Source: Desulforamulus putei DSM 12395 (GTDB taxonomy: Bacteria; Bacillota; Desulfotomaculia; Desulfotomaculales; Desulfotomaculaceae). Taken from it: a DNA stretch of 64,000 bases. Below are positions 19,624 to 53,394 of this stretch, piece after piece. The notes under the pieces are model-generated. The model saw only the letters and a program-made list of their open reading frames with translations. It did no database searches and was not told where the DNA came from. The position numbers and the translations under genes were made by a program. The DNA lies in assembly GCF_900129195.1 (NCBI RefSeq), contig NZ_FQUY01000002.1:62001-126000 (forward strand). The letters run 5' to 3'. How positions within the stretch are numbered: the first letter of the stretch is position 1; every line of letters starts with the position of its first letter.

Positions 19624-21329
19624 GTGGATTACCACCCCTGTTTCCCGGTACCCTGTCCATAACGGAGATGGATAAAGGTGAGTGGAAAGAGAATAAAAAC
19701 CCGGCCATGCGCCTTTTTGGCAAACGCTTTTTTATTGACCAGCGGGCCATGGACTTACTGGTTGAGTTTTTGGCGGTGGCGCTGGCGGAAAAGAAAATTG
19801 CAGCGGAAGGCGAGAAAACAGGCAGGACGCCGCTCTGGAACGCTGACGCGCTGCCTCCTTTGTCGGACTTGCGCAGCTGGCCTGCGGCGGCCGCGCTTTT
19901 TTACCGGCTGCCGGTGTACCTGAATTTAAAGCTGTTTGCCTTTTTCCGGCTCACGCCGCCGGATAAGCGCCACCCGGTGCATGAGGAACAGTACAGAGAG
20001 CTGGGCCGCAGATTGCGTGAAAAGCCCGGGCTGGCCGAAGGGGGCAAAGTGGATAAAGCGGTGGAGATACTGAAACAACTTCTGGGCGGACTGCAGGGGG
20101 CAGGTTTTGACCGCGTCTGGTCGGCCCGCACCTTTTATCCCTTAGCGCCGGCTCTGTTAATGCAGGAAACACTTTTTAATTTTTCGACGGCAAAATCCAA
20201 GAAAGTTAATGGATGGGAAGATATTATTGATTATTTCAATATCTATTTTAGCGTGTCAAAACACCGTTTCCTTGCCCGCGGTGGAGAATTGCTTTATTTA
20301 CAATTATGCAACCTTTTTCGCACCGACCCGGACGTTTTTGCCACCTGGCTGGCAGAATGGCGGGCCTTGATGATACTGCGGCCCGAGGAGGCCGACCTGG
20401 AAAAGCTGCATGAAAACCTAAGCCGCGAGCTGAAAAAGCTGGGCGAAGGCCGGGTGAGCAGAATACTGCATAAGCTGGCCGACTACATTGAAAATCTGGA
20501 TCCGGCAACCAGCCGCAAAGTGACGGAGAAAGTTTCCAAATCCGAACTGAAGTGCGAATATTGTGCGGCTGAAACCTGGCCGGAAACCTACTTGTTTGCT
20601 GTGGAGCTTTATCGCCTGCTGCAGGCCGCTCTGGATCCGGCTGAACGTTTGGACATGCTCATGCTGCTCTGTGTTCTGCAGGTGCTGCGCACCCTGTGCG
20701 CTCAGAGTGCCCGTTATGGCGGGAGGGAGGGGCAGACTGTTTCCCTCAGCAACCCTCTGGGTTATGCCTGGCTTTTCACTCCGGGCCGAGCTTCGCCCGC
20801 CCTACGTTTGGCGGCGGCGGGCAACCTGCAAGTTGTGCAGACCATGATTTACACCGCCCTGCGTCATCCTGCTCTTAAGCAATACGTGCAGCGGGCGGTT
20901 AAAGAAGTGATGGGCAAAAAAGATGAGGAAGCTTTAAAGAAAGAAGAGAACAAGCTGTGGCGGGAAGCCGATGACAAATATGGCTACAAGCTGTTGCTTT
21001 CGCTGGGCAAACAGTCGGGCATTATTGTGCCCCGTACCGGCCCGGGAGCACGTTTTGTGCTGGGGGAGAGGCTTTTGCGCCTGCTGGTGCTCACTGTGCT
21101 GCCGCCCGGACAGCGCTGCACTTATCCGGAATTTTTGCAGCAAGTGTATTTGCACTTCGGCATAGCTCTGGAAGGCAGGCAGCTTTTGGAAGCGCTGCGT
21201 TTTACAGGCCAGTTTGTGGGCCATGATTTTGCCGGCCAGGATAAGGACTGGCCAGTAGCCATGCTGCGGGCGGCCGGCTTTTTGGAGGAGCTGTCGGATG
21301 CTTTTTCGCTGGTGGTAAATCCTTTTTAG
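19620..21329 (+). CDS. DptG/SspG-like PT-restriction subunit (unrecognised fold)
   Basis: 569 residues with no catalytic motif I recognise. It is mostly helical, with one Cys pair C312-E-Y-C315 and a Lys/Glu-rich stretch near 430-445. It lies between the DptF-like ATPase (4-bp ATGA overlap) and the HerA-like protein, the position DptG (DndG) has in the restriction trio of Dnd systems; DptG members also lack obvious enzymatic motifs. The assignment therefore rests on order, size and company. ATG 19620, no separate SD site needed because of the coupling. Confidence 0.55.
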   Translation: MSGLPPLFPGTLSITEMDKGEWKENKNPAMRLFGKRFFIDQRAMDLLVEFLAVALAEKKIAAEGEKTGRTPLWNADALPPLSDLRSWPAAAALFYRLPVYLNLKLFAFFRLTPPDKRHPVHEEQYRELGRRLREKPGLAEGGKVDKAVEILKQLLGGLQGAGFDRVWSARTFYPLAPALLMQETLFNFSTAKSKKVNGWEDIIDYFNIYFSVSKHRFLARGGELLYLQLCNLFRTDPDVFATWLAEWRALMILRPEEADLEKLHENLSRELKKLGEGRVSRILHKLADYIENLDPATSRKVTEKVSKSELKCEYCAAETWPETYLFAVELYRLLQAALDPAERLDMLMLLCVLQVLRTLCAQSARYGGREGQTVSLSNPLGYAWLFTPGRASPALRLAAAGNLQVVQTMIYTALRHPALKQYVQRAVKEVMGKKDEEALKKEENKLWREADDKYGYKLLLSLGKQSGIIVPRTGPGARFVLGERLLRLLVLTVLPPGQRCTYPEFLQQVYLHFGIALEGRQLLEALRFTGQFVGHDFAGQDKDWPVAMLRAAGFLEELSDAFSLVVNPF

Positions 21330-50344: not shown

Positions 50345-50372
50345 TTGACAAATGTAACTGATTTGATATAAT
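50345..50372 (+). promoter_or_regulatory. Consensus sigma-A promoter of tRNA-Gly
   Basis: TTGACA (50345-50350), 16-bp spacer, TATAAT (50367-50372): both hexamers perfect. Transcription would start near 50379, about 35 bp before the tRNA. Confidence 0.88.
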
Positions 50373-50487: not shown

Positions 50488-50500
50488 TTTATTTTGTACT

Positions 50501-50630
50501 GGACTCACAGGGACACTGGACTCACAGGGACGGTTCTTTTGAGTCTTTTTTTCTTGTGAGTCTTGGGGACGGTTCTTTTGAGTCTTTTTTCTTGTGACTC
50601 ATAGATTCAAGAGAACCGTCCCTGTGAGTC
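50501..50630. repeat. Palindromic GGGACGGTTCT repeat element beside tRNA-Gly
   Basis: A 19-bp perfect inverted repeat, GACTCACAGGGACGGTTCT (50519-50537) and its complement (50612-50630), encloses two direct copies of a 25-bp unit beginning GGGACGGTTCTTTTGAG (50527-50551 and 50566-50590). A 14-bp duplication GGACTCACAGGGAC occurs at 50501 and 50518. It lies between the tRNA CCA end and the PilZ stop codon (minus strand). It may act as a bidirectional terminator or be a small non-coding mobile repeat. Confidence 0.8.
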
Positions 50631-51239
50631 TTAATCTTTTGAGAATAACGCAGCCAGGTCAGCCAGCCTCTGGCGTTGAGCGGGTAACAGGTTGGTGAAT
50701 TTAAAACCTGCGTAAGGAACGTTATCGGTATTTTTCCTCCAGGCCAAACGTGCGGTGGTTGTAATCAGTTCTCCGTTAACCTGAAAACTGACAGAAAAAT
50801 CATTGGCGGCCTGCAGCATTTTTTCAAGGGCAGGGGTTACATAAACCATGCAGCCCCCCTCAGAAAAATTAAGCATTGCTGTTTGGGCGGTATCGTTGCC
50901 GGAGGAGAATAAAACATGCGTTGCATGTTCCACCCTCATAAATTGCCTTGCCTTCAGCATTTGGAAGCGTTCCGGTATTAACAAGCCGTAAAACCTTTGG
51001 CTATCATGACCGATTGCCACCACTTTACTGTCAGCACTGTATAATCCGTACCGCATCGGCACACGAATTTGAATTTCCTGGTCCTTCTGTAAAACTAAGA
51101 CCTGACCCTCCTGCCTAGGCAGACCAATCCAGAAAAGGGTTTCTTCAATATCTGTGATGACGGCTTTATACTCAGAAAAAGGAGGGACTTGTATCAGAAT
51201 TTCTTTCTTAACGGTCAAAATCTCTAAGGTTTCAATCAT
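50631..51239 (-). CDS. PilZ-domain c-di-GMP effector (YcgR-like)
   Basis: About 202 residues. The N-terminal ~90 form a YcgR-N-like beta domain; the PilZ domain follows with the RxxxR motif in LKARQFMRVE and the (D/N)xSxxG motif in LNFSEGGCMVYV, then ARLAWRK and YAGFKFTNL. It should bind cyclic di-GMP; a GGDEF cyclase lies at 6.3-7.5 kb. ATG 51239 (MIETLEIL) has GGGAG 9 bp upstream; the TTG at 51248 would touch the SD. Transcribed away from a broken paralogue just upstream. Confidence 0.85.
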   Translation of the reverse strand: MIETLEILTVKKEILIQVPPFSEYKAVITDIEETLFWIGLPRQEGQVLVLQKDQEIQIRVPMRYGLYSADSKVVAIGHDSQRFYGLLIPERFQMLKARQFMRVEHATHVLFSSGNDTAQTAMLNFSEGGCMVYVTPALEKMLQAANDFSVSFQVNGELITTTARLAWRKNTDNVPYAGFKFTNLLPAQRQRLADLAALFSKD

Positions 51240-51309
51240 CGTAAACAACTCCCTGGTCCAATCTCAGCTCGGTTCTGTGCATTCCGAATGAGAATTGACT
51301 TCTGTAATA

Positions 51310-51804
51310 TTAAGTTATCTGCCCCTTGAGTATTTCAAGGCAAGGGCCATTAGAGTATTTTGGGTCCTTTGGATGGATATCTTTAAATTTAAAGCCGGTG
51401 CATAATATTTCATCCTTTTGTTTTAGCCAAACCAAAGTAGCCGCGAGGGAAAACGCGGTGGAGTCAATCCCAAATACTACACGAAAATCCCTTTCCTTTT
51501 CCAGTAATTTCTGGGGTGACAAAAACCTTTAATCCTCCTGCGGAAAATCAAATATTTCCGTAGATACACTGGTATTTTGAGAGATGGATGTAAACAGTGC
51601 CGTGGTGGAATATTTACTCTGCACGTAATCCCTTCTCTGCTGTCGCTCAAATTTTTCCGGGACTACCAAACCATACACTTTCCCATGTTTCTTGCCGATC
51701 TGTGCCACTTCTGTTTCGGCACAATAGGAAGCCAAATGGTCTTGTTCCCTCGACTGAATAAACTCCCAATAACATACAAGCCATCCCCTCATCTTAATTA
51801 GCAA
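51310..51804 (-). pseudogene. Decayed PilZ paralogue with an in-frame stop
   Basis: Two open stretches in one frame (51804-51529 and 51522-51310), separated by one TAA codon, match the neighbouring PilZ protein. The first has VYGLVVPEKFERQQRRDYVQ (compare FYGLLIPERFQMLKARQFMR), the second AATLVWLKQKDEILCTGFKFKDI (compare ARLAWRKNTDNVPYAGFKFTNL). The YcgR-like N-terminus is missing. The loop motif DxSxxG is not clear. AGGAGG stands just before the stop, with TTG 51522 eleven bases on, so the second half could be retranslated. I read it as a truncated duplicate in decay. Confidence 0.7.
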
Positions 51805-51983
51805 AAAAGAGAAGAATTTAGCCAGGCCGGTTTTCCTTTATAAGAGTTCAAACCCGTTAGGTTAAAATCCTTTGTCAAAAATTAACTTTGATATAATTTT
51901 CGCAATAAATGTTAAAATCTTTATCCTAATGAAAACACCGTACCATCAATGCCATCGTATATGTTTAAAGGTCCCTTACAAAA

Positions 51984-52015
51984 TAGGAAACCCAGGTATT
52001 TACCTGGGTTTCCTA
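51984..52015 (-). terminator. 15-bp hairpin, candidate terminator of the minus-strand RNA
   Basis: TAGGAAACCCAGGTA (51984-51998) and its perfect complement (52001-52015). On the minus strand it is followed by TTTTGTAAG, a short U-tract. It lies 6 bp past the end of the candidate RNA. Bases 51805-51980 hold nothing else I can name. Confidence 0.6.
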
Positions 52016-52021
52016 AAAATA

Positions 52022-52250
52022 AAGGGGAACGCCTGTCAGGGAATAGGGTAATTCAAACACACAACCTACCTTTGGATGAAAACCTAACTTCTGAACGTTC
52101 ACACCTGTTTAACAAACAACCGATTTGCAGGGAATCACTCAGGACTTAACTAACAACCACTGACGGACCGTACATAACGGACTGTTTTATTAACGGGTAC
52201 CATCAAACAGAAACCGCGTAGTCTTACAGCTAAACCAAGGCGTTCCCCTT
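52022..52250 (-). ncRNA. Candidate structured RNA, ~229 nt, unassigned family
   Basis: The minus strand carries a near-consensus promoter (see 52257-52285) whose predicted start, near 52250, is the first base of AAGGGGAACGCCT. That 13-mer pairs perfectly with AGGCGTTCCCCTT at the other end (52022-52034 on the plus strand), closing a ~229-nt molecule, and a terminator-like hairpin follows. No open frame fits. A long closing stem around a long interior is seen in 6S RNA, raiA RNA and other structured RNAs. SRP RNA is unlikely (no GGAAG-type tetraloop region seen). I cannot name the family. Confidence 0.65.
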
Positions 52251-52256
52251 GATCTA

Positions 52257-52285
52257 AATATATAGAAAATTTGAACAGTTGTCAA
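52257..52285 (-). promoter_or_regulatory. Promoter of the candidate structured RNA
   Basis: Read on the minus strand: TTGACA (52285-52280), 17-bp spacer, TATATT (52262-52257, 5/6). The +1 falls at about 52250, the start of the closing stem. Confidence 0.75.
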
Positions 52286-52366
52286 GTGATTTACAGGTAT
52301 TTTCATAAGAAGTTTGGTATATATGTTTTTCGACATCGGCAGCGTTTTATTTCAGGACAAAACAAG

Positions 52367-52392
52367 AAACGCCTCCGTTTATGGAGGCGTTT
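52367..52392 (-). terminator. Terminator of the phosphate permease operon
   Basis: AAACGCCTCC (52367-52376) pairs with GGAGGCGTTT (52383-52392). On the minus strand, TTTCTTGTTTTG follows. It lies 4 bp beyond the permease stop. Confidence 0.82.
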
Positions 52393-52395
52393 CTG

Positions 52396-53394
52396 CTATA
52401 GGAAGAGCATTCTTACTACAATAAAAGAAATGGCGGCCAAGATCATTGTAACAGGCAGTGTTATGACCCAAGCGGAGACCATGGTGATGGCCGTGCCCCA
52501 CTTAACAGCGGAAAATCTCTTGGCAGACCCCACACCCATGATGGCAGAACTGATGACATGGGTGGTGGAGACAGGCAGTTTAATCAAGGTAGCTCCGATG
52601 ATAACAAGAGCGGAGGTCAGGTCTGAGGCAAAACCGCTGGCAGGCTCAAACTTTATAATTTTTGAACCAACGGTTTTAATGATTCTCCAACCGCCCACGG
52701 AGGTACCCAGGGCCATTGCCAATGCTGCAGAGACCTTCACCCAGGGAGCCACTTCCAGGGTGTCTTGAAACCCCCCCGCCACCAGGGCAAAGGTGATGAT
52801 CCCCATGGTTTTCTGGGCATCGTTGGTACCGTGGCTGAAGGCTTGAAAGGAAGCCGTAAAAATCTGCAAAAAGCGGAACTTTGAATTGATCCTGTGGGGT
52901 GAAAAATTAGCGAATATTAGTCGAATGATAGACATAATGATATAACCTACGGTAAAAGCAAGCAGGGGGGATAAAATCAGACCCTCAATGATGGTAAGAA
53001 AGCCATGAAAGTTCACCGCGCTGAAGCCTGCGGCGGCGATTACCGATCCGGCCAGGGAGCCGATCAACGCATGGGAAGAACTGCTGGGAATACCGTAATA
53101 CCAGGTAAACAGGTTCCAGGCAATGGCTGCCACCAGCGCGGCCGCCACAACATACACCCCGTGTTCAATATTGGCAGGATTGGCCACCTTGCCGCCAACA
53201 GTTTTTGCCACGCCGGTAAAAGTCAGGGCGCCCAGCAGGTTCATCACGGAAGCCAGAACAATGGCGGTTTTTGGTTTCAGGGCTTTGGTGGAAATGGAGG
53301 TTGCAATTGCGTTTGCGGTATCGTGGAACCCGTTAATAAAGTCAAAACTCAACGCCAAAATTACAACGGCTATGATAATTGCATGCTGTTCCAT
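52396..53394 (-). CDS. pit: PiT-family inorganic phosphate permease
   Basis: 332 residues, about ten membrane helices. The PiT signature is present in both halves: FDFINGFHDTANAIATSI at the N-terminus and FSHGTNDAQKTMGIIT in the middle, with GIPSSSSHALIGSLAG and LPVSTTHVISSAIMG. It moves phosphate (or sulfate-like relatives) with a cation. Upstream, in the same direction, is the DUF47 PhoU-like gene, which in many bacteria regulates PiT. 19-bp gap between them. Confidence 0.93.
   Translation of the reverse strand: MEQHAIIIAVVILALSFDFINGFHDTANAIATSISTKALKPKTAIVLASVMNLLGALTFTGVAKTVGGKVANPANIEHGVYVVAAALVAAIAWNLFTWYYGIPSSSSHALIGSLAGSVIAAAGFSAVNFHGFLTIIEGLILSPLLAFTVGYIIMSIIRLIFANFSPHRINSKFRFLQIFTASFQAFSHGTNDAQKTMGIITFALVAGGFQDTLEVAPWVKVSAALAMALGTSVGGWRIIKTVGSKIIKFEPASGFASDLTSALVIIGATLIKLPVSTTHVISSAIMGVGSAKRFSAVKWGTAITMVSAWVITLPVTMILAAISFIVVRMLFL

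Follow-up and report, generated by a model that had tools for sequence, protein, structure and literature searches.

A conserved small RNA gene of Desulforamulus putei that matches no catalogued RNA family

In the genome of Desulforamulus putei, what lies in the interval that separates a gene for a PiT phosphate permease from a broken pilZ-type gene? A preliminary description of the window (the whole stretch of 64 kb analysed here) had placed in it an unassigned structured RNA on the minus strand, reminiscent of 6S or raiA-type RNAs. Our analysis shows that this interval holds a conserved stand-alone small RNA gene, with its own housekeeping-type promoter and terminator. Judged by sequence comparison, the RNA is the founding example of a genus-restricted family matching no catalogued RNA family; this would be a new family, of unusual plan, within a known kind of bacterial regulatory RNAs. 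By analogy with these, it probably regulates other genes through base-pairing of short C-rich sequences. The locus thus offers an uncatalogued small RNA with seven homologs (that of D. putei included), exact ends and three conserved elements open to mutation. The host belongs to a lineage that we take to be sulfate-reducing, and our search of the literature on that lineage found no work on small RNAs.

The transcription unit

The features of the unit are as follows.

52280 to 52285, minus strand: -35 box TTGACA; TTGACA or TTTAC(A/T) stands at the equivalent place in 7/7 homologs
52257 to 52262, minus strand: -10 box TATATT; TATAAT in the other six homologs
52238 to 52250, minus strand: terminal helix, 5' arm, AAGGGGAACGCCT, starting where the transcript is expected to begin
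52129 to 52138, minus strand: internal motif GTGATTCCCT (family GTRRTTCCCT), in 7/7 homologs
52039 to 52043, minus strand: third TTCCC copy, at RNA position 207, in this genome's RNA only
52022 to 52034, minus strand: terminal helix, 3' arm, AGGCGTTCCCCTT, with a core, GGCGTTCCCC, identical in 7/7 homologs
51980 to 52015, minus strand: intrinsic terminator, a hairpin (52015-51984) with a TTTT tail

The promoter had been called near-perfect, and the boxes indeed match the consensus at 11 of 12 positions (TTGACA-17-TATATT, 52285-52257 on the minus strand). Promoters with at least 11/12 matches number four in the 64-kb window, against 0.3 expected under a first-order Markov model, and two of the three others lie upstream of a tRNA-Gly and of a SAM riboswitch. 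The former, at 50345 on the plus strand, is a 12/12 sigma-A-type promoter with a 16-nt spacer; an 11/12 promoter, TTGACA-18-AATAAT, stands at 20259 on the minus strand. All seven family members carry a sigma-A-type promoter. Transcription had been proposed to start on the first base of a stem: that base lies 7 nt past the -10 box, the expected start being 52250 or 52249, and in 7/7 homologs the sequence AGGGGA(A/G)CG(C/T)C begins 6-8 nt past the box.

The 13-bp stem itself, described as having its other arm 216 bases further on, pairs perfectly (52250-52238 with 52034-52022, arm starts 216 apart) and falls within inverted repeat I2. By itself such a stem is no rarity, since 0.8 stems with 12 bp or more at this spacing are expected by chance in 64 kb; the non-random feature is its position, exactly between start site and terminator in D. 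putei and again in the homologs. The 15-bp hairpin with its U-tract was likewise found as described, with a 15-nt perfect arm (52015-51984) directly after the stem.

Distribution and known RNA families

Conservation in relatives had been named as a test of the RNA, and homologs with the same layout were found in six of the eight other same-genus genomes searched (seven of nine with D. putei itself), with one accepted copy each. What is kept across the genus is the promoter, a GGGGAACGCC 5' end, GURRUUCCCU inside, a GGCGUUCCCC 3' end and the terminator, while the rest drifts.

These homologs are easily missed. BLAST with the RNA body matched only its own genome at E 0.01 among 113 genomes of the order and class and 398 of the phylum, bar one match in G022; body matches in G022, G032 and G068 fall within apparent coding sequence or at its beginning, and were set down to chance. 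A query including promoter and flanks was needed to expose the homologs of G001 and G005. Among the 113 genomes, a single-sequence model (R1) found its own genome only, and a model built from D. putei, G001 and G005, with promoter and terminator included (R2), gained G002, G004 and G006 at E 2e-10 to 5e-13. With E up to 1, R2 matched 14 genomes, of which six were accepted (E below 1e-9) and eight dropped (E 0.25-0.88), as was a second match in G006 (E 0.017) that lacks the family motif. The homolog of G007 was obtained by an unfiltered R2 search of one specific locus, after being missed by the genome-wide run; the genome-wide first pass therefore overlooks some true members, and the lack of a match in other genomes does not prove absence. 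A third model, R3, found the same seven genomes out of 41, all within the genus; it was built from six of the seven homologs (G005 omitted), so that matches to those are expected by construction. Promoter and terminator are absent from R3 and therefore provide independent support there, but they are present in R2. No match at E below 0.2 was obtained in the searched genomes outside the genus, plasmid and phage records gave no match to the RNA, and none of the viral contigs contained two of the patterns. A scan of genome contigs for GGGGAACGCC-N190-220-GGCGTTCCCC returned 32 stretches, unrelated by eye and mostly coding or made of GC-rich repeats; it tells us little, since five of the six later homologs fall outside its narrow gap range or have different arms.

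Two members of the genus, G003 and G008, gave no RNA with R3 (50 of 282 and 50 of 504 candidates scored, respectively), and none was seen on reading the interval after their hemerythrin/PAS-like gene near the permease, presumably a DUF438-type gene. Since nothing was found in these two genomes, the RNA appears not to be essential genus-wide.

The description as unassigned was borne out by Rfam, in which no family reaches its curated cut-off for the stretch; two homologous loci (L101 and L103) likewise gave no match at E up to 1. In literature on small RNAs of Desulfotomaculum and Desulforamulus we found nothing on this RNA, and the 3' arm word occurred once in the literature, in an unrelated paper. 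The proposed likeness to 6S or raiA was not supported: neither family matches 51900-52400 at E up to 10. With 6S RNA (RF00013) the RNA shares its size and closing stem, but 6S is a long hairpin with a central open-promoter-like bubble, which the interior here is not. With raiA/ModT (RF03072), as outlined in PMC11706538, it shares a length of about 200-260 nt, an end-to-end stem, its own sigma-A promoter and terminator, and varied neighbourhoods, whereas raiA has eight conserved helices and two pseudoknots against one conserved helix and a terminator. The D. putei genome has two 6S RNA genes elsewhere, of 89.6 bits (L057, contig C37) and 81.4 bits (L058, contig C34), and raiA gave no match at E up to 1 in 10 genomes of the taxonomic family. 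With these results and an unstructured interior, membership of either type is highly improbable, in spite of the similar size, the stem joining the ends and the dedicated promoter and terminator.

Other parallels are the UCCC-motif RNAs RsaE/RoxS, RNAIII, LhrC and FsrA, likewise stand-alone small RNAs of low-GC-type Gram-positive lineages. The RsaE/RoxS model (RF01820) scores 16.3 bits on the stretch (E 3.8) against a gathering score of 79, so the RNA is not a member of that family. It resembles RsaE/RoxS in its duplicated C-rich motif with one copy in a stem, a parallel in function being our inference, and differs in being twice as long, with a 10-bp invariant end-to-end helix and a C-poor, unstructured body. 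In having a G-tract to which UUCCC seeds could pair, the RNA recalls RsaI as described in PMC9217828, except that here G-tract and C-seeds share one molecule.

Invariant ends around a drifting interior

The family alignment shows AGGGGAACGCC conserved at the RNA start and, in 7/7 homologs, the 3' sequence conserved at 189-279 nt along the RNA. In the terminal helix, eight of ten pairs are invariant and two vary by one-sided G-U wobble, with pairing in every cell of the seven-homolog alignment. Both changes sit in the 5' arm, and all seven homologs have an identical 3' arm. No pair is changed on both sides, against 5 of 11 in the terminator of the same transcripts, whose sequence varies while its pairing is mostly kept. 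The helix is therefore held by sequence, and not by shape alone. As it hardly varies, covariation speaks neither for nor against it; its support comes from its recurrence alongside interiors that are 45% identical.

Pair by pair, the identity of the interiors is 41-52%, except for G001/G005 (90%), which is about the level of misaligned AU-rich sequence for the former. Interiors are poor in C (9-17%, against 21-25% G, in the seven homologs) and fold no better than shuffles in 7/7 (z -0.66 to +0.59). In D. putei a z of -5.4 is obtained for the fold of the complete unit, owing to stem and terminator, and one of +0.4 for the 208-nt interior alone; the minimum free energy structure of the unit is multibranched. 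The term 'structured RNA' is thus apt for terminal helix and terminator, and inapt for what lies between. Two tiny interior helices proposed by RNAalifold from six homologs are not claimed, and a GGUU repeat (six copies) was set aside, its P of 0.009 for that word becoming 0.77 for the commonest word overall. Such a pattern, with a helix constrained in sequence without compensatory changes around a long, unstructured and unconserved body, is one that covariation screens miss.

The exception in the interior is the GURRUUCCCU motif, located within a narrow range from the 5' end (104-127 nt) and a wide one from the 3' end (74-144 nt) in the seven homologs. It is predicted to be free in G002 and partly paired in the other six. 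UUCCC is common to this motif and the 3' arm; it occurs twice in 7/7 homologs and three times in the RNA of D. putei.

Coding potential had been denied, and we agree, as no reading frame is conserved or shared across homologs, barring the G001/G005 pair. Short frames occur, as in any such sequence, but the longest have 12-31 codons in unrelated places and the sole shared one belongs to two 90% identical RNAs, which makes a short peptide gene a very remote prospect.

Possible modes of action and genomic setting

The interpretation that we tentatively favour is a trans-acting, seed-type translational regulator. Its two conserved UUCCC stretches would act as seeds that pair with G-rich ribosome-binding sites of mRNAs and block translation, and the G-rich 5' end would gate one of them. 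By folding onto the 3' seed, this 5' end would close the molecule and protect its ends, and the seed would become available only once the terminal helix is opened by a target or through processing, while the C-poor, unstructured body would leave the internal seed without competitors. We favour this interpretation because of the C-run in a C-poor RNA, the UUCCC in the invariant 3' arm and the precedents for UCCC seeds. According to PMC9217828 and PMC4132741, small RNAs of the low-GC Gram-positive bacteria S. aureus, Listeria and B. subtilis, such as RsaE/RoxS, RNAIII and LhrC, use UCCC motifs as seeds that target G-rich Shine-Dalgarno regions; in RsaE one copy, a UCCCC motif, is sequestered in a stem, and the partner RNA RsaI carries GGGG. 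A conserved C-rich motif, the mark of UCCC-seed small RNAs, is present here in 7/7 homologs. Two results speak against it: the 47 ORF start regions of the window showed no enrichment of seed targets over shuffled seeds (P 0.41 for the motif, 0.17 for the 3' arm), and the predicted accessibility of the internal motif is mixed.

Less likely is a conformational switch, in which the 5' arm would pair either with the internal motif, made first, or with the 3' arm, made last; these pairings being mutually exclusive, the choice would set which C-rich strand is free. Of all interior 12-nt windows, none pairs better with the 5' arm than the internal motif in six of seven homologs; in G004 it ranks second. 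This ranking is weak evidence, because any conserved C-run in a C-poor RNA is the best partner for a GGGG arm. In line with a switch, the motif keeps a narrow range of distances to the 5' end and a wide one to the 3' end, and G004 and G006, the sole RNAs with a changed 5' arm, are also the sole ones with a changed motif. Yet these joint changes are not cleanly compensatory: pairing is weaker in G004, and G006 pairs only in a shifted register. Moreover, the pairing of 5' arm and motif, at -8.0 to -12.0 kcal/mol, compares with -17.9 to -20.6 for the terminal helix, which is far more stable once complete.

On a par with the switch, and likewise unlikely, is a protein-binding RNA, whose sequence-invariant terminal helix would be the site of a specific RNA-binding protein, sequestered or scaffolded. 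The ten base pairs are almost free of substitution while the rest, outside G001/G005, has diverged as described, and the single copy with its own strong promoter is as in housekeeping RNAs. This would leave the invariant internal single-strand motif unexplained, however, and no recurrent neighbouring gene or known protein partner accompanies the RNA. Somewhat less probable still is a new class of riboregulator, in which the 5' end would select the early internal or the late 3' C-rich partner and so expose the other seed to mRNAs, the long unstructured loop being a mere spacer.

The neighbourhood accords with a trans-acting RNA, in that no gene is constantly linked to it. G006 has the permease, the DUF438-type gene and the RNA in this order; in G007 the RNA follows the permease at a distance of 3 kb, and in G001, G002, G004 and G005 it occupies other loci with other neighbours. 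G003, the nearest relative encountered (about 81% identical in DNA across the permease region), has the DUF438-type gene in this position, and no RNA was found there. That loci differ by species, three of them downstream of the PiT permease (D. putei, G006 and G007) and four elsewhere, might suggest a small non-autonomous mobile element with inverted-repeat ends forming the stem. This is very improbable, as each genome has a single copy (the sole extra in G006 being a weak, non-family match), the repeats do not include the promoter and terminator, although these are conserved together with them, and no target-site duplication was seen.

The surroundings also call for a few remarks. A DUF438-type gene follows the PiT permease in G003, G006 and G008 and is missing here in D. 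putei (51905-52365). The remains of the pilZ-type gene (51310-51804, minus strand) consist of two fragments, 91 and 70 aa long, that lie in different frames; its counterpart in G003 is one gene of 231 aa. A second, intact PilZ gene lies at 50631-51248. Between it and the tRNA-Gly, at 50500-50640, are repeated GACTCACAAG / AAAAGAACCGTCCC units.
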